A stretch of DNA of 64,000 nucleotides from Labilibacter sediminis. GTDB lineage: Bacteria; Bacteroidota; Bacteroidia; Bacteroidales; Marinilabiliaceae. Shown here piece by piece: positions 16,934 to 29,940 of the stretch. The notes beneath the pieces were generated by a model. The model searched no databases. It was given only the letters and a program-made list of their open reading frames with translations, and was not told where the DNA came from. The translations under genes and the position numbers were made by a program. The stretch's first letter is position 1. The number at the start of each line of letters is the position of its first letter. The stretch spans positions 62,001 through 126,000 of the forward strand of contig NZ_VCHY01000003.1 of NCBI RefSeq assembly GCF_005877885.1. Reading direction: 5' to 3'.

Positions 16934-19900
16934 TTAGAAGTTATACGACATTCGGAAGCTCACAAAATCACCTTCGGGAGTATAAGAAAAGTACGGTTGA
17001 AGAACTACTAATTCTAAAACATCCATCCAAATACCGAAAGTTTGGCTATGATGCCAGGTATTAGAATCTTCTCCTTCTAACCAAACCCGACCAACATCAA
17101 ATCCTCCCAATACGCCAATATCCATTGGTACATATTTATTGTTCCAGGCCAATAATTTCATGCGGAGGTCAGTGTTATTGTATGCCAATGACTCTCCTCT
17201 AAACCGGTTGTTTCTGAAGCCACGCAAATTGGTATTGTTGCCTAAACTTGGGAATTGATAAAACTGGGGCTGGCCTTGTACGTACTGAAACCCAATGTTA
17301 TTGGCAAAGACCAACTTAGGCTTATTGGACAAGGTTAAGTAAAACTGAGAATTGGTATCGAAACTTAAAATATCATCCTGGTTAGAAGTGTTGTTTTGAT
17401 AGGACAAAGCCACATTAAACTTAAAACCATTTGATGGATTACTTTCCCTGTCTACAACCTTTACACTATATAGCACACTGCCTCCTACAAAATGATTTCT
17501 ATCAAAGGCTTCTTCGGGTAATCCAATTTCAGGGTCTTCTGTTACTCTTCCTTTGGTGTCTTCAATACGTACTGATTCGTAGGTTGGACCAAAAACCAGT
17601 TGACTGCGCTCATTTTTTGAATGAATCCCAATCAGCGGAGAAATTTTAATGGCACGTTTTCGTACCCAGTGATATTCTTTATCTAAATAGGGGTTTTCCG
17701 TTTCATTACCTATACCAAAATAGTTCTCGATACTTGGGTAATCAATATGCAACGACGGATAAAAATCAAGTTTACCTAATAATTTTGGGAAGTGCGCATC
17801 ATAACCAATGATAAAAGCATCCTGACTACCCGGGGCAACTGCAAAGTACGCTTTTTGCTCTGATTTGTATGGGACTTTGCGCCATCCATAGGTAGTCCAC
17901 CCATAAGTACCTCCAAACCATAAACCATCATCTTTGGTATAACCAAAACGCAACATAGGCAAACCACTATTGTATTTAAAGGCCTTTCTATCGTACTCAT
18001 TTACATCTATTTTATTTGATGTTTTATCAGCAATACCTTTTCCTTCAATGGCAATTCCTTCTTTATTATCGTAAGCTTCAATATTACCTCCCAAAGATTT
18101 ATTGACAACTTTATCATCATCCTCTCCCCCAATAATTCGGATGCGAATTTTTGCTGCTCCTGAACCGGTAATACAAAACTTATCCTCTTCTCTTAATCCA
18201 TATATCCTAAGCTCATTTGTTTCGTGAGGATAAAAAGTGCGTTCAAATTTTAGAAGATCATCTTTTTTACCGCGCTCGATAATATGCCTAACACTTACTG
18301 AACCATCTGTATTTCGGTTTATCTGAAAAGTATCATCGTTATCTGTTCCGACAATTTCAACTTCTTGCGAGATATAATCATAAAGTTTTTTGCCAATCTC
18401 CATCATATTATCGCGCCTAAGCTTAAGCAAAAAAACCAATTCCTTATTTTGTTCCCGCACCTCTTCCGAGAGACTATAAAGAGCATTTTCAATAATCTCA
18501 TCGCTTAAGTTATACTTAAGCTCCTGAATTGATTTTTCCCAAACAGACCATTCCAACTGATTTAAAAAATACCTGTCGAAATAACGCGCGTTGAATGACA
18601 AATTCTTTACATCGCGCACATTCTCTTTCATGGTTTTAAACTTCTTAATTAAAAAGGTAGAAGCATACCATGGAATAAGCCCTTCAAACTTATAAAACAC
18701 CTGGTCTCTATCTCTTGGTATAGGCCTGTACATTACCTGATCATCCTGTTCAAAGCTTGCCCACCGCCATTGGTCATCATGTCGATCCCAATCATGCACC
18801 CATAAATCAAATAACCTTGATTTAAGTACCCATTCCTGATCTATAAAATGGCTCTTTTTTTCGCGAAGGTTAGTTAACAAATCGGTGTAACCAATAATCT
18901 TTGCTGAGTTTCCAAAATACGAGGCATCACTCCAATCGCCTCTTGGCCGCTGCTCTAACAAGTACAATTCCTCAGGAAATAGAGCATTGTAATTTCCCAA
19001 TTGCTTTTGGTGTTGAAGAAATACCAGCTCCGGTTTGGTATAATAAACATTGGCCGCCTCTGAAAGCGGAGGTAACATAAGTGCTCCATACGGGTGACTT
19101 GCACTATTCTGATCCTTCATTAAATCCATGGCTTTTAAACGGCTATATTTTTCATCTACCAGCTTAGTATAGTCCTTATTGATAGACCGAAGTATATATT
19201 GTTTACCATCCTGCGCTTGCATTCGCAACGAATTAGAAGACATTCCTCCCCCTTTTTTTATGGGTTCCAATCCCCCGTATTTAGTTTCCAGGTTAATAAC
19301 CGGTACTTTTACAGGAGTTGTCCATATATCGCGATATTGAGCACCTAAAAAAAACTGACTCCCTTTCCCAAGAGCAAAAGATGAATTGGCCGCTAAAGTT
19401 GTATCGGACAATTGTATGTGTGGATAAATTTTTTCCTCAACAACAGTACCGGCTCTTGGTTCTCTTAACTGCCTTTTAAACTCCAATTTTGGTCTTGCAT
19501 TAAAACCTGATACCGTATAAAACTCAACCCATGATTCATTGTCTTCGTAAAACAACACTTTGGCATATCCCCGATCCTCTCTGGCATATTCGGCCTCACC
19601 CCCGGCCATTGTATAGGTTTGCTTACTGCCAGATCCACTAATGATGTATTTTCGTTCATCATCATCAAAATATTGTAAGCAATGCTCATGACCTGCAGCA
19701 AAAATCACATTAACATCCAATGCCTCTGCCATTTCGTTAATGCCCTGCATTAATTCTTTGTTCTTACTATTGCTGATATCTTGCACCGAACCAGTTACCT
19801 GACGGTATACAGGATAAACAGAACCTACAACTGGTAGCGGAATCCAAAGCCAATCGTTTAACTCATGCAATGGAAACACATGATGTTTAAATGCAAAATT

Positions 19901-20638
19901 TCCACCGTGTGTTCCATTACTTTTAATGGGGTGATGCATAAGCATCACTATTTCATCATTTTTATATTCAAGAAATATCTCTTCAATACGATCGAGTAAA
20001 TCGCCCCTGGTTTTTATTTCGCATCCTTTATTAATCTTTTTCTCATTGTCCCAATTTTGCAACCACCATTGGGTATCCAAAAAAACAAAAACCAGATCCT
20101 TATGAATCTTAACCACTTTAGGATCGCCACAACCCTGTCCCGGATAAAGTTTTACTTTTTTCGGGAATTCATCGCCATAAAAAGATTCAATATATTTTTC
20201 TTGTCGAAGAATAGCCTTCAATCCCTTTTCTTTACCTTTCTTCCAATCATGATTACCCGGAATAAAATAGGTGTTGCCATTACACCACTGTGCAAGGTTT
20301 ATTTGAGCATCCAGTTTTTTTTCCATCAGCCTACGCTGACTATTTGATTTTGAGGGTAAGCCTAACGGATATAAGTTATCTCCTAAAAAAACCAGCGATG
20401 AATTTACATTGGTGTTGGCTAAATCGTACTGAACAGCATCCAACACATAATTGGTATAGTTAACCGTATCATCTAACTCTCCCGCATCGCCCACTAAAAA
20501 AAGAGAGTGCACCAATTGTTTCGCACTCGTTTTTTTTCCTGTCTCCCATTCCAGCTGAGTTTCGGAATAATAGGGATAATGAAGCGTACCACACGAAAAC
20601 AAAAACAATACGAAAGAAATCCCTATCAAATACTTCAT
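16934..20638 (-). CDS. Outer-membrane lipoprotein: calcineurin-like phosphoesterase fused to Omp85-like barrel
   Basis: 1234 residues, ATG at 20638. The N-terminus is a lipoprotein signal (VLFLFSCGT). Residues ~40-330 carry all metallophosphoesterase motifs: LVGDAGE, FLGDNLYP, PGNHDW, MLMHHPI and AAGHEH. A middle region (~400-850) has no family I recognise, with RDRDQVF and a YDNKEG stretch before GEDDDK. The last ~330 residues are strand-rich, contain NLRGFRNNRFRGES (the family-wide R-G-F/Y motif of surface-antigen/BamA-type barrels) and end in an aromatic (SYNF). A cell-surface or periplasmic phosphatase anchored by its own barrel is the likely reading; substrate unknown. Confidence 0.8.
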   Translation of the reverse strand: MKYLIGISFVLFLFSCGTLHYPYYSETQLEWETGKKTSAKQLVHSLFLVGDAGELDDTVNYTNYVLDAVQYDLANTNVNSSLVFLGDNLYPLGLPSKSNSQRRLMEKKLDAQINLAQWCNGNTYFIPGNHDWKKGKEKGLKAILRQEKYIESFYGDEFPKKVKLYPGQGCGDPKVVKIHKDLVFVFLDTQWWLQNWDNEKKINKGCEIKTRGDLLDRIEEIFLEYKNDEIVMLMHHPIKSNGTHGGNFAFKHHVFPLHELNDWLWIPLPVVGSVYPVYRQVTGSVQDISNSKNKELMQGINEMAEALDVNVIFAAGHEHCLQYFDDDERKYIISGSGSKQTYTMAGGEAEYAREDRGYAKVLFYEDNESWVEFYTVSGFNARPKLEFKRQLREPRAGTVVEEKIYPHIQLSDTTLAANSSFALGKGSQFFLGAQYRDIWTTPVKVPVINLETKYGGLEPIKKGGGMSSNSLRMQAQDGKQYILRSINKDYTKLVDEKYSRLKAMDLMKDQNSASHPYGALMLPPLSEAANVYYTKPELVFLQHQKQLGNYNALFPEELYLLEQRPRGDWSDASYFGNSAKIIGYTDLLTNLREKKSHFIDQEWVLKSRLFDLWVHDWDRHDDQWRWASFEQDDQVMYRPIPRDRDQVFYKFEGLIPWYASTFLIKKFKTMKENVRDVKNLSFNARYFDRYFLNQLEWSVWEKSIQELKYNLSDEIIENALYSLSEEVREQNKELVFLLKLRRDNMMEIGKKLYDYISQEVEIVGTDNDDTFQINRNTDGSVSVRHIIERGKKDDLLKFERTFYPHETNELRIYGLREEDKFCITGSGAAKIRIRIIGGEDDDKVVNKSLGGNIEAYDNKEGIAIEGKGIADKTSNKIDVNEYDRKAFKYNSGLPMLRFGYTKDDGLWFGGTYGWTTYGWRKVPYKSEQKAYFAVAPGSQDAFIIGYDAHFPKLLGKLDFYPSLHIDYPSIENYFGIGNETENPYLDKEYHWVRKRAIKISPLIGIHSKNERSQLVFGPTYESVRIEDTKGRVTEDPEIGLPEEAFDRNHFVGGSVLYSVKVVDRESNPSNGFKFNVALSYQNNTSNQDDILSFDTNSQFYLTLSNKPKLVFANNIGFQYVQGQPQFYQFPSLGNNTNLRGFRNNRFRGESLAYNNTDLRMKLLAWNNKYVPMDIGVLGGFDVGRVWLEGEDSNTWHHSQTFGIWMDVLELVVLQPYFSYTPEGDFVSFRMSYNF

Positions 20639-20692: not shown

Positions 20693-21631
20693 TCAACTTA
20701 TCTTAAAAACAAACAATTTACCTGCTTTAGATTTACCTTCTGATCCGATAAATAAATTACCTTCCTGATCAAAGCATATTCCTTCGGGTTGGGGAACAAT
20801 GCTTTTGTCAAAGAAAACCAACTGACTAATTTGTTTATTCTTATTCAGGATCAACAACATATTTCCGCGAGCCGATAATAAATAAATATCTCCATTTAAA
20901 GGATGAATAGCAATTCCGGACGGTGAAAAATAACGTACCCTTTGCTTGTATTCTTTCAGGGACTCTTTTTTTAAATCGCCTCCTCTTTCATCCAGGTAAT
21001 CCAGAATCTTTTCTCTACGCAAGAGAATAAAAGGGCTCTCAGAAAATTTAGACTTTTTAAGATTGAACTTATAAACAGCTCTTTGTCCTCGCGAAGCCCC
21101 ACCTTCCAGAACCTTACCCTTACAAGCAATTAAAAGCCTGTGTTTGCCTGAATCATAATACAATCCTTCTACATTATTAACAGAAGAAAGTGGTGTTAAT
21201 ATTGTCTCACTTTTGTTTGTTAAAGTATTAAACCGATGTATATCGCCATTACTTTCAGTCACATAAATATATTTCCCCTCTCTGGCAATGCCTTCATAAT
21301 CTCCATCTAATCCGAAACGTGTCTCATTTAATATTTTTCCCTTGTCAGGATCTATTTCAAAGATAAGTCCCTGCTCATCATTAATTGTAAGCAGGGTTTG
21401 AGCATTGCTATTGTACGTGAGGCCAGATATTTCTTTTAGTTTTTTCGATAACTTTAAGGTTTTATCCGGTTTATTAAACTGATAATAAATTATCTCTTCA
21501 TCATCTGACAAAAACAAATAGTCGCCCTTTTGAATAAATACATACGACAGCCTGTTTCCTTCACCATTTAAAAACGAACAGGAAGCAAGTAGCACGATGC
21601 AACCAACCAAAAGGAAACGAAAAAACACCAT
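20693..21631 (-). CDS. SdiA-regulated-domain lipoprotein (beta-propeller-like)
   Basis: 312 residues, ATG at 21631. Lipoprotein signal peptide ending LLASCSF. Repeated short blades (LKEISGLTYNSNAQTLLTINDEQGLIFEID, EGIAREGKYIYVTESNGDIH, VEGLYYDSGKHRLLIACKG, SPSGIAIHPLNGDIYLLSA, QPEGICFDQEGNLFIGSEG) match the SdiA-regulated/esterase-like-phytase-type propeller family. Ligand or activity unknown. It lies just upstream of the phosphoesterase-barrel gene on the same strand, but a terminator separates them. Confidence 0.75.
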   Translation of the reverse strand: MVFFRFLLVGCIVLLASCSFLNGEGNRLSYVFIQKGDYLFLSDDEEIIYYQFNKPDKTLKLSKKLKEISGLTYNSNAQTLLTINDEQGLIFEIDPDKGKILNETRFGLDGDYEGIAREGKYIYVTESNGDIHRFNTLTNKSETILTPLSSVNNVEGLYYDSGKHRLLIACKGKVLEGGASRGQRAVYKFNLKKSKFSESPFILLRREKILDYLDERGGDLKKESLKEYKQRVRYFSPSGIAIHPLNGDIYLLSARGNMLLILNKNKQISQLVFFDKSIVPQPEGICFDQEGNLFIGSEGKSKAGKLFVFKIS

Positions 21632-21643
21632 ATTATTAATAAG

Positions 21644-21925
21644 TTAAAAAAATATCAAACCTATAACAAACAATAATATTACAGATGCAAAGGACACTAG
21701 AAAAATGCTGTATGACAAAGATAGCAACTTATACTTGTGCCCATTATATAAATTTATCATATAACCTGTTCGAAACTGATTCCCTATATGCAGCTCCTGG
21801 CCATTCACCACTTCATTCATGGCTTCTTCATACTCATCGAGCGAATGATAACTAAACATCATAAAGTTATTGTACTTTAATTCGGAATACTTTGGTTTAA
21901 TTTCCTTATCCCAAACCTTCTTCAT
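21644..21925 (-). CDS. Small membrane protein, hypothetical
   Basis: 93 residues from ATG at 21925 (MKKVWDKEIK); a TTG at 21961 directly after an in-frame stop would give 105. A polar N-terminal part (...DEYEEAMNEVVNGQELHIGNQF) is followed by one hydrophobic C-terminal segment (SYSIFLVSFASVILLFVIGLIFF). It ends 12 bp before the SdiA-regulated-like gene and may be co-transcribed with it. No family recognised. Confidence 0.5.
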   Translation of the reverse strand: MKKVWDKEIKPKYSELKYNNFMMFSYHSLDEYEEAMNEVVNGQELHIGNQFRTGYMINLYNGHKYKLLSLSYSIFLVSFASVILLFVIGLIFF

Positions 21926-22007
21926 TAAGTGCGAAATAGAGTTCGCCTGATCTTTACTCAACTACAAATCACTGTTTATCCAAAAGAAAACAGCACATAC
22001 CAATGGT

Positions 22008-23580: not shown

Positions 23581-24255
23581 TCATTGGTCATCATCTATGA
23601 AATCCTCATTGGTAACATTAGAAACTTCGCTGCTATAATAGTAGATAATTACCTGAGCGGTATCTCTCAAAAAATTAACCTTCCCTATCTCGGCCCGATG
23701 AATTGGCAACCCCGTTCTTTCACATAAATCTTCCAATAACTCCTTGTATTTCTCCGGTCTAATGAATTCTATTTTCTCATAAACCACAAGTTTACTTGAC
23801 TCATGCTTAAGCAACCATACACGTTCTAAACCATAAGTAACCGCTATTACCAAAACATTTGTCAGAAACACCACAGCCAAACTCACATCTGTGCTACTTA
23901 AAGCATTAATTACAGATATTCCTATAGTTATAAAAAGATAGGTCATTTCTTTAATCGGAATTTGCGTAGTACGATATCTGATTATCCCAAAAATGGCAAA
24001 AAGACCTAATGCAAAACCCAATTGTAACTGTACGCTTCCCAAAAGAAAACAAAGTAAAAATACAATGGTACTGATGAGTAAAAATGTGAATAAATAATCT
24101 TTTCGTTTGGCCGCCTGATAATATAAAATCCTTACCAGTATCAGTGATACCCCAAGATTAAAGGTAAATCGCATTAAAAGTTGAAAGAAATCATCCCATT
24201 CAACTACGCTGACTTCAAATATTTTTACCCCCATTAAGAAAGAATCTAATTCCAT
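23581..24255 (-). CDS. DUF4956 membrane protein
   Basis: 224 residues, ATG at 24255, with about four hydrophobic segments (residues ~20-150) and a soluble C-terminal ~75 residues. The core LGSVQLQLGFALGLFAIFGIIRYRTTQIPIKEMTYLFITIGISVINAL is characteristic of DUF4956. This family is commonly found next to VTC-like polyphosphate polymerase domain proteins, and here it starts 7 bp after one. It is the last gene of the CotH operon. Biochemical role unknown. Confidence 0.88.
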   Translation of the reverse strand: MELDSFLMGVKIFEVSVVEWDDFFQLLMRFTFNLGVSLILVRILYYQAAKRKDYLFTFLLISTIVFLLCFLLGSVQLQLGFALGLFAIFGIIRYRTTQIPIKEMTYLFITIGISVINALSSTDVSLAVVFLTNVLVIAVTYGLERVWLLKHESSKLVVYEKIEFIRPEKYKELLEDLCERTGLPIHRAEIGKVNFLRDTAQVIIYYYSSEVSNVTNEDFIDDDQ

Positions 24256-24262
24256 GATTTGT

Positions 24263-25018
24263 TTAGTTTTCTATTTCTGATTTTATTTTTTTTATCAGAT
24301 TAAATTTTTGTTTCAATCTGTTGGCTTTGATGTCTTTATTAAGGGAAGCCGCTCCCAAACAATATTTACTAAAAGACTCCGGACGCATCTTATATTTCTT
24401 TAAAACCTTTTGAGCTACAGAATTTAAAGTGTATTTTTTTTGTTTCAATTCAATAATTACTATTTCAGGAAATTCTATCACCATCCCTGTTTCATTGGTA
24501 TAAGACAAATCATGATCAATTGTTAACCTTTCTGACTCTCCAACCAGTGTAATTCGATTAAAACTATTGAATAATTTTGGTTCCAGATCCTCCCCCTTAA
24601 AAGGAGAATTGTCTTTTAAAAACCGTTGTTCGCAAGAATTAAAATTCTCCATCGTGCTATCAATTGTAATTCTCTTTTTTATGGTTCTACCCTTATTATT
24701 TTTAAATTTAATCTCCAGGAAATGCTGTCCTGATATTAAGTATTCTCTTTTTCGTACCTTAAAACGATTTAACTTCCCATTTTGATGTGCCTCATACATA
24801 TGAAACCCTTTGGTATCAAAATATTCCGTTTTATATGGGAATAATCTACAATCGTCAATCTCTAATATTTTATAATCCTCAACTAACTGATGTAAAATCT
24901 CGGTCAGCAAGCCGGAAGGCCCAATAAATTTGGTATCTACCCTATCCATTAAACTAACATGATCCATTTGTTGCAATGAGATGGGAACAAACCGTAACAA
25001 CAGCTCTTTTACGTTCAT
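24263..25018 (-). CDS. Polyphosphate polymerase (VTC) domain protein
   Basis: 251 residues, ATG at 25018. The VTC fold is readable: MDRVDTKFIGPSG near residue 25, YKTEYFDTKGFHMYEAHQNGKLNRFKVRKREY for the substrate-binding basic strands, HFLEIKFKNNKGRTIKKRI, and VIIELKQKKY with the acidic metal ligand. In yeast Vtc4 such a domain makes polyphosphate from ATP; here no SPX or membrane part is present. It precedes DUF4956 by 7 bp. Activity is inferred from family only. Confidence 0.88.
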   Translation of the reverse strand: MNVKELLLRFVPISLQQMDHVSLMDRVDTKFIGPSGLLTEILHQLVEDYKILEIDDCRLFPYKTEYFDTKGFHMYEAHQNGKLNRFKVRKREYLISGQHFLEIKFKNNKGRTIKKRITIDSTMENFNSCEQRFLKDNSPFKGEDLEPKLFNSFNRITLVGESERLTIDHDLSYTNETGMVIEFPEIVIIELKQKKYTLNSVAQKVLKKYKMRPESFSKYCLGAASLNKDIKANRLKQKFNLIKKIKSEIEN

Positions 25019-25028
25019 ATTATATACT

Positions 25029-25733
25029 TTACTGAATCTTTTTCTTTCTTATTTTTAAAAACTTAGGACTATACTCTATACCCATGTAAAAAATGTTTAT
25101 CACATCAGGATTGGCTATATTAAATTCGTTTTGATATTTATATGACAATTTACCACTTAAGCGTTTATTAATCTCCTTTTCCATAGAAATGAAAAACCGA
25201 TTTTTCCACTCCCCATCATCCACTGCCGGCGACAGACTGAAATAATACTCGAAACCAAAAGATGGATACACAAACCATTTTTTATTCTTATACTTTAAAC
25301 TCAATTTATGCCTGTGCCCAATATGATGTATCGATCCATTTTTAGATGTTCTGTAGTTTGCTTGCTCGTTTTGTATTTGGGCGCGATAATTCCATCTTAA
25401 CTTACCTGATTTATACTTGATTTTGGTATACAATGCCCATCGATGAACCCGCTTATTTTTTTCGGGATTGTCATATTCAACCTGGTATCGGTATATTCCG
25501 CCAATATCAATTTTCTTAACTATTGGTACAGATATATTAAGTTCTGATTGCCAACTCCTCAGCTGACTGGAGTTTTCAAAAAGGCGTATTTCAGGCTCAA
25601 TAGAAAAATCTACTTTTTTAAAAATATTGCCATTTACAGTTAGGTTATACCAGGTATGGAAATCTTCCTGTTGTGCTAACAAGGTTTGTAAACTGAACAG
25701 AATTAATGGTATTGCTAAAAATAGTTTTCGCAT
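25029..25733 (-). CDS. DUF2490 outer-membrane-like protein
   Basis: 234 residues, ATG at 25733. Signal peptide MRKLFLAIPLILFSLQTLLAQQ, then alternating strand-rich sequence (FHTWYNLTVNGNIFKKVDFSIEPEIRLFENSS, RWNYRAQIQNEQANYR, KWFVYPSFGFEYYFSL) typical of DUF2490, which probably forms a small outer-membrane barrel. Co-operonic with CotH and VTC genes (gaps 9 and 10 bp). No enzymatic motif seen. Confidence 0.82.
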   Translation of the reverse strand: MRKLFLAIPLILFSLQTLLAQQEDFHTWYNLTVNGNIFKKVDFSIEPEIRLFENSSQLRSWQSELNISVPIVKKIDIGGIYRYQVEYDNPEKNKRVHRWALYTKIKYKSGKLRWNYRAQIQNEQANYRTSKNGSIHHIGHRHKLSLKYKNKKWFVYPSFGFEYYFSLSPAVDDGEWKNRFFISMEKEINKRLSGKLSYKYQNEFNIANPDVINIFYMGIEYSPKFLKIRKKKIQ

Positions 25734-25742
25734 CTACAATCT

Positions 25743-26147
25743 CTATTTAGCCACAACAATATCTTCAACAGTTACCTTCTGTTTCTTTGCTGTTATTGAA
25801 ACATCTCGAATAATGGCTATTTTTTTTGAAGTCATATTATAATCCAGTTCCTTATCCTTTGAGTAAGCAAATATTCTATAGTCTCCTTCACGCAAATAAT
25901 TAAATTCGAAATATCCATCGTAACTAGTTTCTACTTTATCGTTGTAAAACTGATCGTTACCATAAATAATATAAACATCATATTCCTGTGCGGGATAAGT
26001 ACTTCTTAATATGGTAAAATCAAAATTGTAATCTTCGATAATAACCTTGCCGGCAATTGTTGCCATCCCTCCTTCTCCAGGTCCTTTTTCGCATGCAGAA
26101 AAAATGAATGTCTGCATGCAAATGGTAAATAAAATTATATATCTCAT
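25743..26147 (-). CDS. Small lipoprotein with Ig/CNA-B-like fold, hypothetical
   Basis: 134 residues, ATG at 26147. Lipoprotein-type signal (MRYIILFTICMQTFIFSACEKG, Cys at ~19). The body (ATIAGKVIIEDYNF...SYDGYFEFNYLREGDYRIFAYS) resembles a carboxypeptidase-regulatory/Ig-like beta-sandwich. It lies 12 bp after the CotH gene and 9 bp before the DUF2490 gene. No function is recognisable. Confidence 0.65.
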   Translation of the reverse strand: MRYIILFTICMQTFIFSACEKGPGEGGMATIAGKVIIEDYNFDFTILRSTYPAQEYDVYIIYGNDQFYNDKVETSYDGYFEFNYLREGDYRIFAYSKDKELDYNMTSKKIAIIRDVSITAKKQKVTVEDIVVAK

Positions 26148-26159
26148 CTGTTTATACTT

Positions 26160-29100
26160 TTAATTCACTATCATTTTAGTAGATTGTAAACCTTTTTCTC
26201 CAATCAAACGAACAACATATACTCCGTTAGTGATGCTACTATTATCAAAATCGCGCCAAGAAATCCTTTGCTCACCTTCCGTAAAAAATCGATCCTTTAT
26301 AATTTTCACAACCTTCCCTTCCAGATCGAGTAACTCCAGTTTATACACCCCAACATCTTTTATAACAAAGGATATATTTACATAGTCATTCACCGGATTT
26401 GGGTAAACTTTAAGTTTAGCGTCCAGGTTATTCTTTATCTCAAAAATCCCCGTATCTATAAATGAAGTATTCTGTTCTCCGGGAGTACCTCCATTGGCAG
26501 ATGGCTCCCAATTTGCACCTAACTCATTTGGCTTTATAGGATTGATTAATTCCAATGAAGAACCTTGTCCATTTGCTTCTTCAGGCCAGGTACCGTTTGG
26601 ATAATAATCCACCGCATCCATTAAGTTATCCTTATTATCGTAAAGTCGAAGGTTATCTCCCATACTACTTAAACCAAAATCTATTTCTCCTAATACATTT
26701 TGCACCAATGGGTACATGGTTTTAAATTTTTCTACATCCTTACATATAACCAAATAATCTCCCGGCGCGAATAAGTATTGCGATGAAATTATAAAAGCAG
26801 AATCTTTTTGACTATCACTAAAAACCCACTCATATAAATTAACGGTTGTACTTCCTGCATTGTACAGTTCTACCCAGTCGCCAGGTTTAACGTTATCCGA
26901 TGACTTATAAAATATTTCATTAATAATTACCTGCGTATCTCCTTCCGAAGCTTCTTCAAAAACAGCTTTATGATAATAGCTTGTATTTATATTGTATTGT
27001 AATTCTGCTTTACTCGAAGGCATGTCTCCCTGCCATTTCAAAAACTTATATCCAGGATTAGGAACTGCTTTAATTTCAATATTATTGTTTTTAAAGTAGT
27101 TTCCAGTAAATGGATACTCATTTGGAGAAATTGAATTTAGCCTAACCTTTCCTTCTTCTTCTGAGGATAAATCAACAGAAACATTATAACTGCCATAGAA
27201 GCCCATCATCGCAGACAGATGATCAGAATAAAATGAGGATCTATAATTGGAAAATGTTTTTAATCGACTTACTTCATTACTCCAATTGTTATAATCTAAA
27301 TCCCATCGGATGCAATGAGCAACCATTTCACCCTTATACAAATTCTTTAGTGAATCAATTTGAACATTAATAACTTCACTCTTCCAAATGGTATTTAAAT
27401 AATCTTTCCCTCGCCTGGCAAACTCTTCTTTAAATTTTTGATTGTCTTTTAATTTTCTGAACAACAGGGTTGACCAAGGAGGGTTTGGCCAGACAGGACC
27501 ATTAGTTGCCAATGCATCCAAAATTGAGTTATGACTATAATTATGATTTCCAAATAGACCATAGCCAAAATCAGTATCGTATAGTATCCATCTGTATTTA
27601 CTTCTGCTACTTGTGGTATTCCAATATTTAATATTATTTCCTGGCCAATCTCTATTATCAATATACGTTTGAGCTAAAAAATAATCTATAAAATTATCTA
27701 TATCTATAATTTCACATACTTTATCATAGTTTTCACCCGATACCAAAGAGTTACCATCTATAAATTGAAGCAACTGTTCGTATCTGGAACCTTCACCAAA
27801 TACTAATGAAGCATTATTCTCCAGGATATTGACACTATCCGGTTTTACTTGTGTATTATCGGAAATAAAATGCTCATTTATCTTCTCCCGCATATTAAGC
27901 ATTCCCCAATATTGGCCATTTATATAAACCACAGCGGGTTGAAAGCCCTGATATTCTAAACCTATTGGTTTCATTATTCTGGTCATAAATGCATCTCTAA
28001 AAAATGTATAATAGAAATCGGTACCAGCATTACGCAACACTATTGATTCAAACTTATCATTTACTTTTTGATCAAAGAACTTATAATTAAATGATCCATC
28101 TCCATATTCCTTTCGGGCGAATAAAGCCAATGATTTTTGCGGATTGGCTCTTGACCAGGCTCCAAATATTTTTACTCCAGCCCCATGATCTATTTGCTTA
28201 ACCCCTTGCTTGTCGTAATATTCAAAATGAACAGGTTTTTCCCAGTCTTCCCAGAAATTGGCTCCAAAGTGAGGGATATTGTTTTCTGCATTGGGTCCCA
28301 TCTCATATATTCCTGTATGATAATCAAATAAATTATCCGGGTCTGTAGACAAGCACACCACAGGAAGCGAATGGGTTAACTGAAGAATATAAGTATTGGT
28401 TATCACCGGACCCGACAATTTACCTGAAACCATAGCCTTTGCTCTGACCACAGCATCCGTACTAATTGGTATTGGTAGGTTATATAGTAAACTTTCTTCA
28501 TCAGGTACTGAGCCGTCTAAAGTATAATATATATCTCCGATTACATTTCCCTTAATATAGAGCTCTAAACTCAGAGAATTGCTATACTTACCTCCCGTAT
28601 AAGAAAAAGCAACCGAGTCTGAAGATACAGTACTTACACCTTGCATGCTGTTAGTTGCAAAAGGAGTGGGATTTTCAAAGTAAAGCCAATTATTACCTCC
28701 ATCCGGTTGTCGACCGAACGAAATATCTGAAGGCAATTTAGTTGCTCCAACAGAATCAACAAGCACTTTATTATTAAACAAATACAACGCTTCACCACCT
28801 GCATTTATTTTAAAGTTGGCATGAAGATATGATGTTGGCAAACCTACAAAGTCCGACACCGGATACTCACCTATGGTATTTAATCCAACAGATAGAAATG
28901 GAATACAAGAAAGATCGGAGGATGAAATGGAATGATTATGCACCTGAATAGATAGCACATTGACTCCTTGTTTTAATATATTACTCCAGTCATGCACTTC
29001 AAACTCGTTTGGCTCCATGCCCTGATAAAGCCGGGCCTCATGATCGTAATTATCAGCGGTTGCATTATATGCCACAACCCCTCCAGGTGTTCCCAGATTA

Positions 29101-29708
29101 TCTCTGGCTATTTCAATGCCATTAATATAAGCCACAAATCCATCGTCATAATCCATATGTAAAACCAGTTGCTCAATGCTATTTAAGTTTTCAATGGTAA
29201 ATTCTTTACGGACAAAAACACTAATTACAGCATTTGTTATGGTTACATCATCATCATCCCCATAACCGATCCCTGTAGCTCCTTCCTGCCAGCTTTGGTC
29301 ATCAAACCCAGTATTTTTCCAAGCTTCATCAACATTACCTGAGGGAATAAGATATCTTACAACATCCCCTTTATCAATTATGGTTTGCCACGAATTTACG
29401 GTCTGTTTTCTATTTTTACCAGATGCAAATACCAACTGAAAACTACCTGGAGGCATATCTATCGGGGGAAAATTCCATTTTGTAGTATCGGATAAATCAT
29501 CTGTAAAGGAATAATCTCCCAAATCGATGCTATGATCGGATGAATTATAAAACTCGACCCAGTCCGGGTATTCGCCATCTTCATCTGTCAGTTGAGAAAT
29601 GTTTGAAGAAACAAACTCATTAATTTTAACTTGTGAGTGAATTGTTGAGTGAATAAATGCAAACGTCAAAACGGCACAAAAACATACAATTGAAGAAATT
29701 GACTTCAT
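26160..29708 (-). CDS. Secreted CotH-kinase family protein with lamin-tail and T9SS sorting domains
   Basis: 1182 residues, ATG at 29708. Order: signal peptide (1-25); lamin-tail domain (~26-100, KINEFVSSN...DWVEFYN); galactose-binding-like region (~110-280); chitobiase-C-like segment (~385-440, DIYYTLDGSVPDEES); CotH domain (~450-830) with VYINGQYWGMLNMREKI, a DNRDWPGNNIKYW motif at ~685 and LYDTDFG at ~710; a bacterial-repeat strand region; second lamin-tail domain (~930-1060); and a C-terminal type A sorting domain (LKVYPNPVNDYV...GVYVVRLI). CotH proteins are protein kinases related to Fam20; the two acidic motifs are kept. It heads the five-gene operon. A secreted or surface kinase is likely; its target is unknown. 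Confidence 0.9.
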   Translation of the reverse strand: MKSISSIVCFCAVLTFAFIHSTIHSQVKINEFVSSNISQLTDEDGEYPDWVEFYNSSDHSIDLGDYSFTDDLSDTTKWNFPPIDMPPGSFQLVFASGKNRKQTVNSWQTIIDKGDVVRYLIPSGNVDEAWKNTGFDDQSWQEGATGIGYGDDDDVTITNAVISVFVRKEFTIENLNSIEQLVLHMDYDDGFVAYINGIEIARDNLGTPGGVVAYNATADNYDHEARLYQGMEPNEFEVHDWSNILKQGVNVLSIQVHNHSISSSDLSCIPFLSVGLNTIGEYPVSDFVGLPTSYLHANFKINAGGEALYLFNNKVLVDSVGATKLPSDISFGRQPDGGNNWLYFENPTPFATNSMQGVSTVSSDSVAFSYTGGKYSNSLSLELYIKGNVIGDIYYTLDGSVPDEESLLYNLPIPISTDAVVRAKAMVSGKLSGPVITNTYILQLTHSLPVVCLSTDPDNLFDYHTGIYEMGPNAENNIPHFGANFWEDWEKPVHFEYYDKQGVKQIDHGAGVKIFGAWSRANPQKSLALFARKEYGDGSFNYKFFDQKVNDKFESIVLRNAGTDFYYTFFRDAFMTRIMKPIGLEYQGFQPAVVYINGQYWGMLNMREKINEHFISDNTQVKPDSVNILENNASLVFGEGSRYEQLLQFIDGNSLVSGENYDKVCEIIDIDNFIDYFLAQTYIDNRDWPGNNIKYWNTTSSRSKYRWILYDTDFGYGLFGNHNYSHNSILDALATNGPVWPNPPWSTLLFRKLKDNQKFKEEFARRGKDYLNTIWKSEVINVQIDSLKNLYKGEMVAHCIRWDLDYNNWSNEVSRLKTFSNYRSSFYSDHLSAMMGFYGSYNVSVDLSSEEEGKVRLNSISPNEYPFTGNYFKNNNIEIKAVPNPGYKFLKWQGDMPSSKAELQYNINTSYYHKAVFEEASEGDTQVIINEIFYKSSDNVKPGDWVELYNAGSTTVNLYEWVFSDSQKDSAFIISSQYLFAPGDYLVICKDVEKFKTMYPLVQNVLGEIDFGLSSMGDNLRLYDNKDNLMDAVDYYPNGTWPEEANGQGSSLELINPIKPNELGANWEPSANGGTPGEQNTSFIDTGIFEIKNNLDAKLKVYPNPVNDYVNISFVIKDVGVYKLELLDLEGKVVKIIKDRFFTEGEQRISWRDFDNSSITNGVYVVRLIGEKGLQSTKMIVN

Positions 29709-29910: not shown

Positions 29911-29940
29911 AAAGGCCATTCTAAAATCAGAATGACCTAT
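29911..29940 (-). terminator. Terminator of the DUF2807 gene
   Basis: Minus-strand AGGTCATTCT arm (29938-29929) pairs with AGAATGGCCT (29922-29913) with one mismatch, followed by TTTATTC. It is 60 bp past the stop at 29999. Confidence 0.55.

Follow-up and report, generated by a model that had tools for sequence, protein, structure and literature searches.

A VTC-DUF4956 gene pair in an operon of Labilibacter sediminis and its recurrent outer-envelope partners

The window, a 64,000-nucleotide stretch of Labilibacter sediminis (contig NZ_VCHY01000003.1, positions 62,001 to 126,000), carries a five-gene operon on the minus strand in which a VTC domain protein and a DUF4956 membrane protein are combined with a CotH protein, a small lipoprotein and a DUF2490 outer-membrane barrel. 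The VTC-DUF4956 pair is the core of the system. The main new result is that the pair is repeatedly accompanied by outer-envelope proteins, and outer-envelope passage proteins are more regular partners of it than CotH. The parts belong to known families; the export reading given to them here is new. The features, with coordinates in the window, are as follows.

23581..24255, minus strand: predicted DUF4956 inner-membrane protein, 224 aa (Pfam and model)
24263..25018, minus strand: VTC (Vtc4-type) polyphosphate polymerase domain protein, 251 aa (Pfam and profile)
25029..25733, minus strand: DUF2490 outer-membrane beta-barrel, 234 aa, with signal sequence (Pfam and model)
25743..26147, minus strand: small lipoprotein, 134 aa, weakly fn3/transthyretin-like
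26160..29708, minus strand: CotH protein, 1182 aa, with two LTD stretches, chitobiase-C/Fn3-assoc, CotH and type IX secretion system (T9SS) tail (Pfam)
26166..26408, minus strand: Por_Secre_tail (T9SS type A sorting domain), residues 1101-1181 of the CotH protein (Pfam)
27231..28175, minus strand: CotH kinase domain, residues 512-826 (Pfam)
29913..29938, minus strand: terminator-like hairpin of 11 pairs, upstream of the CotH gene (consensus match)

The gaps between the five co-directional open reading frames (ORFs) are 12, 9, 10 and 7 bp in the order CotH, lipoprotein, DUF2490, VTC, DUF4956, and all ORFs lie as placed in an earlier sequence-only reading of this DNA, which had described a run with gaps of 7-12 bp. 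The families that it named are also recovered; the T9SS-type CotH protein, DUF2490, VTC and DUF4956 score above their Pfam cut-offs, and the small protein, without a Pfam match above cut-off, has a lipobox-like FSAC at its start that was spotted by eye. CotH, DUF4956 and VTC are each present in one copy in the 6.36-Mb genome, so their joint occurrence in one run is not explained by large families. The five-gene order and the CotH domain architecture are identical in Marinilabiliaceae bacterium N1Y90 (L126). The 290-bp gap upstream of the CotH gene contains the hairpin at 29913-29938; terminator-like sites are no commoner in the region than expected by chance (3 found vs 3.2 in shuffles).

The distribution of the genes was followed in a phylum sample of 247 genomes, with DUF4956 in 68, VTC in 43 and CotH in 96, and in four sets of loci: the window with 18 sampled VTC loci (19 in all; 20 sampled loci for the DUF2490 count), 79 public DUF4956 loci, 27 VTC loci (L083-L109) that represent mostly other classes of the phylum sample, and 16 loci of relatives. 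The sets overlap, since L124/L283 and L151/L286, at least two such cases, look like the same loci. Flanks of 5 kb on either side are available for only 51 of the 79 public loci, and L171, which has no DUF4956 label, is outside the 79. ORFs were called greedily by length, and antisense ORFs can therefore be mislabelled (e.g. L087, L106). DUF4956 is found within 3 kb of VTC in 47 of the 48 VTC matches of the phylum genomes, the exception being a fragment of 54 positions, and all 43 VTC genomes contain DUF4956. Flanks were viewed for 46 of the 48 VTC places, the window's own among them; G119 (a 3.5-kb contig) and the G022:C160 fragment were left out. The Carboxylicivirga-type loci L123, L125, L127 and L128 have DUF4956 with no adjoining VTC in view. 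A contig titled Euryarchaeota archaeon (L145) has a VTC-DUF4956 locus with a DUF4956 64% identical to that of the window, and is probably a misbinned Bacteroidota contig.

The DUF2490 protein of the window scores 67 bits, above the Pfam cut-off, and the Bacteroidia-type loci are the DUF2490 carriers. DUF2490 is found within 3 kb of the pair in 14 of the 20 sampled loci, in 42 of the 79 public loci and in none of the 27 loci L083-L109, and it adjoins VTC-DUF4956 in 11 of the 16 loci of relatives. A model from 33 sequences (pLDDT 89.7) consists of a helix at 2-20, the signal sequence, and 11 listed strands in a beta-barrel. Foldseek matches to this model are outer-membrane barrels plus VDAC/TOM barrels, among them PorB (E 1.5e-4), NanC (E 6.8e-4, TM-scores 0.53/0.59) and the PgaA secretin (E 2.2e-3, TM-scores 0.54/0.44). 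R50, R82 and R141 are basic in 33/33 sequences, and R98, R117, K143 and R179 in at least 88%. Hydrophobic alternation along the strands assigns all seven to the lumen side; this method in itself favours charges inside, so that the better argument is that these basic positions are conserved, rather than where they point. On this model DUF2490 is an outer-membrane barrel whose lumen carries conserved basic residues. NanC and OprO/P prefer anions. DUF2490 resembles the NanC-type and OprO/OprP-type anion porins in being modelled as a small barrel with conserved basic residues inside, and genes of the OprO/OprP-type family Porin_O_P adjoin DUF4956 in Pseudoalteromonas and in G188; it differs in having no shown sequence relation to them and only moderate TM-scores (those to NanC given above).

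In the 27 loci L083-L109 a HlyD-type adaptor is found at most three genes away in 24, a count that measures gene-order regularity because both adaptor profiles were themselves derived from 21 proteins of L083-L109, chosen by size and place. The HlyD-type identity of the adaptors is based on Pfam matches and on a comparison of the two adaptor-class profiles, which are related (98.4%, E 9e-15). Five of nine adaptors put through Pfam score above a HlyD cut-off (L105, L108, L092, L088, L085) and one gives a weak match (L099). The gene order in L105 is CotH-DUF4956-HlyD-OEP-VTC-LTD. No link between VTC and HlyD was found in the open-licence papers searched. A further partner is Porin_O_P, which adjoins DUF4956 on a Pseudoalteromonas plasmid (162 bits) and, together with CotH, in L110 (31 bits, 105 residues matched). 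The VTC of the Pseudoalteromonas plasmid looks degraded: only a C-terminal VTC-like part still has an open frame (L206:5661-5975), between an LTD lipoprotein and DUF4956-Porin_O_P. DUF4956 and the porin themselves are full-length.

The order DUF4956-adaptor-OEP-like recurs in L116-L122, in genomes without a VTC match. Of the two loci put through Pfam, L120 has OEP above cut-off (25.9 bits); in L117 both OEP (18.5) and, narrowly, HlyD_D23 (28.2 of 30) stay under theirs. This order without VTC independently suggests that DUF4956 can serve as the inner-membrane part of an exporter, and L116-L122 possibly encode a DUF4956-based exporter. With DUF2490, HlyD adaptors, OEP and Porin_O_P recurring, VTC-DUF4956 seems to be the constant element, to which different lineages have joined unrelated parts for crossing the outer membrane.

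The VTC domain (PF09359) of the window protein scores 90.6 bits (cut-off 23) and is the only Pfam domain in its 251 aa, with no SPX domain and no fused VTC1-type transmembrane domain. As a single query the protein found no Vtc structure in PDB, and a profile that combines 21 VTC proteins from Bacteroidota, Deinococcota, Actinomycetota and Alphaproteobacteria matches yeast Vtc4 PDB structures at E 2e-11, the top matches being Vtc4, Vtc2 and Vtc3. The profile was compared at 13 active-site positions of Vtc4. Ten of these fall on an identical residue (K200, R264, R266, K281, K294, R361, R373, E426, K428, K458), R253 is replaced by H, and K300 and K455 are unaligned. R264, R266 and E426 are taken from the yeast VTC structure, for which the complex was mutated as R264A/R266A/E426N (PMC9911596; this and the other papers cited by PMC number are represented by part of their text). 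Their counterparts in the window protein, placed by offset and motif, are R89, R91 and E190. Invariant in the 21-row alignment are R26, Y66, D68, R85, K87, R89, R91, Y93, E102, K104, K114, R116, R155, T166, D168, E190, K192 and K218. Given the match to Vtc4 and the conserved active-site positions, the window protein is probably an active polyphosphate (polyP) polymerase.

The DUF4956 protein of the window scores 178 bits, above the curated Pfam cut-off. Its model, from 14 sequences (pLDDT 69, pTM 0.48), has five predicted long helices and a C-terminal beta-alpha-beta-beta domain, and all 14 sequences share R93, R95 and T96, which lie around the end of helix three. The fold search gave non-significant matches of ACT type (aspartate kinase, AcuB, TyrA); a streptococcal membrane protein is termed MgtC-like with an ACT domain by its authors (PMC12345266). 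In L185 (9410-12047) DUF4956 is followed by a protein of about 340 aa without a Pfam match and then by an ankyrin-metallophosphatase gene, and DUF4956 followed by the protein of about 340 aa is also found in L080, L081 and L165.

The CotH domain (PF08757) of the window scores 149.6 bits (cut-off 23.8). It had been put at about residues 450-830 and is present there, with a somewhat narrower span in Pfam (512-826). The same protein has LTD (101 bits, two stretches, the best at 925-1035 and the second, by inference, N-terminal), CHB_HEX_C_1 (46 bits) and Fn3_assoc (45 bits), and its T9SS tail is matched by Por_Secre_tail (38 bits, cut-off 27) and TIGR04183 (35 bits, cut-off 23). A comparison with PDB sequences gave no match. 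Across an alignment of 46 CotH domains, D687 is conserved in 96% and D711 in 100%. Their spacing of 24, by which alone they are matched, is close to the 23 between the catalytic D228 and D251 of the CotH spore-coat kinase of Bacillus (PMC7821199), with which the window protein shares the CotH domain. The differences from Bacillus CotH are that the window protein is T9SS cargo with LTD domains and that it has Q-K-S where many relatives have K-K-S; its full lysine motif, P-Q-K-S, is shared by the VTC-linked L088, and L092 has A-Q-K-S.

The pair has CotH no more than 5 kb away in 7 of 19, 15 of 79 and 10 of 27 loci, where 0.18, 0.76 and 0.34 are expected from the CotH density of the sampled VTC genomes (summed from match numbers and rounded genome sizes), and in 6 of the 16 loci of relatives; the binomial tails of these comparisons ignore relatedness and the overlap of the sets. 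CotH adjacency is therefore the case in a minority of loci in each set, yet far above chance in the first three. The possibility, raised beforehand, that a neighbourhood survey would find CotH only occasionally adjacent is thus true in part. Chance adjacency was rejected on the observed and expected counts, with the reservation that the loci are related and the sets overlap. L110, not a VTC locus, is outside the 10/27, and L101 is kept in that denominator with no DUF4956 labelled there. The CotH counts compared with expectation exclude four CotH-like ORFs, two with 341 aa (L080, L081) and two with 337-367 aa (L165, L185); the un-iterated CotH model misses three of the four. At the genome level, CotH is present in 42 of 43 VTC genomes and in 54 of 204 others, and, with only the own, order and class rows counted (61 rows), in 11 of 12 and 15 of 49, both without phylogenetic correction. 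In L072 (13300-16224) and L082 (11763-13463) T9SS-tailed arylsulfotransferase-like (ASST-like) proteins stand in a run with CotH and VTC-DUF4956; they are not part of the model below.

The CotH tree was built from 57 sequences with 46 usable domains; four and one duplicate were dropped and 40 domains taken as unlinked by their coordinates were added, giving 81 rows, and L126 and L163 are not in it. The VTC-linked label changes 12 times on this tree, at least 7 of the changes being forced by starred branches, vs about 23 in shuffles. One group with support 88 is mostly VTC-linked (15 of 20 rows). Because label changes are forced, the VTC-linked CotHs stem from several subfamilies, and different CotH types have been recruited repeatedly. 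Within the genus of the window, VTC is present in 5 of 8 other genomes. A short CotH of 463-476 aa lies inside the operon in G247 (two copies), G250 and G251; the two G247 copies have no LTD and no T9SS tail in Pfam, so the type differs from that of the window. In G254 no CotH is labelled beside the pair.

The 134-aa protein has weak fn3/transthyretin-like matches. Homologues identified by sequence adjoin VTC in L070, L072 and L075. A same-strand ORF of 100-200 aa lies directly upstream of VTC in 3 of 18, 33 of 67 and 0 of 23 loci of three sets, only some of these ORFs being tied by sequence to the window lipoprotein. The iterated lipoprotein profile drifted to larger proteins, and its later labels were not used as evidence.

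Taken together, the operon may be a polyP synthase/translocase extended into a two-membrane exporter, with CotH as a surface phosphotransferase; the whole is proposed tentatively, as something that could nearly as well be true as false. VTC would polymerise the gamma-phosphate of ATP into polyP at the cytosolic face, as the conserved active site implies, and DUF4956 would be its inner-membrane partner and likely the translocation path, in place of the fused transmembrane bundle of yeast VTC. That the pair makes and translocates polyP is fairly likely. The nascent polyanion would then leave the periplasm through the modelled DUF2490 barrel, with the small lipoprotein as a putative accessory; that the chain crosses the outer membrane is possible and somewhat doubtful. 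CotH would reach the surface by type IX secretion and act as an extracytoplasmic phosphotransferase on surface proteins or glycans. It might, speculatively, use or anchor exported polyP, and that it acts on or with such polyP is unlikely. A bolder proposal, judged unlikely, is a dedicated bacterial polyP export system, with VTC as polymerase, DUF4956 as the thread-through of the inner membrane and lineage-specific outer parts (DUF2490 barrel, HlyD adaptor with TolC, or OprO/P porin), in which polyP would be phosphate donor or scaffold for secreted CotH kinases otherwise without ATP. The earlier suggestion of a surface modification related to a polymer or to phosphate is retained in part: a phosphate-polymer machine tied to the surface fits the VTC active site, the pairing and the outer-envelope partners.

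The nearest known systems are the yeast VTC complex (Vtc1/Vtc3/Vtc4) and accessory genes of Gram-positive Pel loci. The window shares with the former the Vtc4-type tunnel domain with the same active-site residues. Basic residues of membrane helices line the yeast polyP channel (PMC9911596), to which the invariant R93 and R95 at a predicted DUF4956 helix end compare by analogy only. The window differs in that its VTC has no SPX or fused transmembrane domain, in that the membrane partner is DUF4956, and in having outer-membrane partners and CotH as well. In streptococci, clostridia and bifidobacteria genes for CotH, a poly-phosphate polymerase, DUF4956 and DUF4832 are found beside pelDEADAFG (PMC7112168), and in Streptococcus intermedius the genes for a membrane protein with an ACT domain (SIR_1592), a polyP polymerase (SIR_1593) and CotH (SIR_1594) have been deleted (PMC12345266). 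SIR_1592 is taken here as DUF4956 because of the shared locus. The same three families thus lie side by side in both cases; on the side of difference, the window genome has no PelG match, the host is diderm, DUF2490 and the lipoprotein are added and CotH is T9SS cargo. The earlier reading knew of no described pathway with this set. That is half right: the trio of CotH, polymerase and DUF4956 is in print for Pel loci (PMC7112168, PMC12345266), and the exporter context was not found in the open-licence papers searched. VTC and CotH genes are also listed in one Clostridium perfringens locus (PMC2879425), neighbouring DUF4956 and DUF2490 genes are on record in Bacteroides thetaiotaomicron (PMC10434189), and PMC10657179 and PMC7332688 concern eukaryotic VTC.

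The Pel loci lend themselves to a different explanation, in which the trio would modify or regulate the assembly of an extracellular polysaccharide, CotH phosphorylating the glycan or its proteins and VTC-DUF4956 supplying the phosphate. The contiguity with pel genes speaks for it, as do the S. intermedius mutants: loss of SIR_1592 or SIR_1594 cuts aggregation in sputum medium by over half and shifts Pel levels in opposite directions (PMC12345266). Carbohydrate-binding Cthe_2159 proteins (L063:11759-13252, L275:6222-8015) adjoin VTC-DUF4956-DUF2490 where other loci have CotH, and an O-antigen-ligase-type Wzy_C protein and a methyltransferase adjoin VTC and CotH in L109 (6945-9656), a possible polysaccharide context. 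PelG is above cut-off in only 4 of the 247 phylum genomes, none of them with VTC (weak matches below cut-off occur in the VTC genomes G055 and G135), and no Pel-type family, glycosyltransferase or polysaccharide synthase is seen among the window proteins put through Pfam, which do not include every neighbour. A Pel accessory role was rejected for the window, whose genome has no PelG match, and the broader polysaccharide explanation appears rather unlikely. On a Deinococcus taeanensis plasmid CotH-VTC-DUF4956 is found with no pel gene annotated within the 12.7 kb shown. It was also considered that the pair faces inward and serves phosphate/ATP homeostasis, draining phosphate into periplasmic or cytosolic polyP with the envelope and CotH genes merely co-regulated. 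Several neighbourhoods fit this: DUF4956-VTC is followed in Nitratireductor by genes for an inorganic phosphate transporter and a phytase-like protein, and on two Aminobacter plasmids by a phytase-like gene, and in Deinococcus sp. QL22 the pair, without CotH, lies near a phosphonate transporter and an acid phosphatase. It leaves unexplained why lineages add an outer-membrane barrel, a HlyD adaptor or a porin, and is judged unlikely. Other tunnel enzymes use other triphosphate substrates or make other products. The VTC domain could accordingly take another substrate or make another product with no polyP involved; in the open-licence papers no bacterial VTC domain with measured polyP synthesis was found, and no effect of the SIR_1593 polymerase deletion is reported in the part of PMC12345266 available. 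Since the Vtc4 active-site residues are kept and the best PDB matches are Vtc4, Vtc2 and Vtc3, this is improbable. Equally improbable is that CotH stands in the window operon by local accident of gene order and has a separate role. The window CotH does sit among mostly unlinked relatives (10 of the 11 rows of the smallest starred clade), and in the congener G249 CotH-lipoprotein-DUF2490 (L289) lies apart from VTC-DUF4956-DUF2490 (L275, beside Cthe_2159), because of which the window operon looks like two joined modules. The excess of observed over expected adjacency, uncorrected for relatedness, the at least 7 forced changes on the CotH tree and the short CotH type in the operon of G247, G250 and G251 argue the other way.

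The lack of a reported effect of the polymerase deletion in the text available, the unlinked relatives of the window CotH and the arrangement in G249 also weigh against the two-membrane exporter itself, as do the limits already given for the adaptor count and for the lumen side of DUF2490 and the following points. PPK1 is present in the window genome and in 41 of 43 VTC genomes, so that VTC is not required as a source of polyP and the idea of VTC as a replacement of PPK1 was rejected. VTC is absent in 25 of the 68 DUF4956 genomes, 8 of the 79 DUF4956 loci are without adjoining VTC (some are cut by contig ends), and the Pseudoalteromonas plasmid keeps DUF4956 and a porin without an intact VTC. 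The DUF4956 profile gave no match to PDB sequences, and the fold search, made with a weak model (pLDDT 69), gave none of significance; neither search linked DUF4956 to Vtc1 or to a known channel. The Foldseek E-values for DUF2490 are only 1.5e-4 to about 2e-3, its lumen also has three positions acidic in at least 88% of the 33 sequences, and the mean lumen content is 13.4 acidic vs 18.3 basic residues. Three of the nine adaptors give no HlyD match in Pfam (L090, L093, L104). The genes downstream in L197 are housekeeping genes (LpxK, a phosphorylase-superfamily protein, GatB and a redoxin) and were rejected as pathway members.

Matches on plasmids are found in 17 records for DUF4956 and 16 for VTC, of which eight were inspected, and VTC and DUF4956 ORFs are adjacent in two actinobacterial records without annotation there. 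In the window itself, 16934-20638 encodes a protein of 1234 aa whose N-terminal part is a calcineurin-like phosphoesterase and whose C-terminal part matches a ShlB-like barrel. About 2 kb past the operon, 20693-21631 encodes an SdiA-regulated protein with a phytase-like match below cut-off, and phytase-like genes come after DUF4956-VTC in Aminobacter and Nitratireductor too. A 105-aa protein at 21644-21961 has a weak match, below cut-off, to the Pycsar effector PycTM.

Analyses published in 2025 failed to find this arrangement of CotH, polymerase and membrane protein outside the Pel locus, as stated in the available part of PMC12345266, and the CotH-VTC-DUF4956 trio in a genome without a PelG match corrects this printed statement. 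DUF4956 and DUF2490, both families of unknown function, gain a concrete hypothesis. If VTC-DUF4956 is a bacterial counterpart of the yeast polyP synthase/translocase, with added passage through the outer membrane, both the export of a long polyanion such as polyP from bacteria and the phosphate supply of extracellular kinases would become testable.

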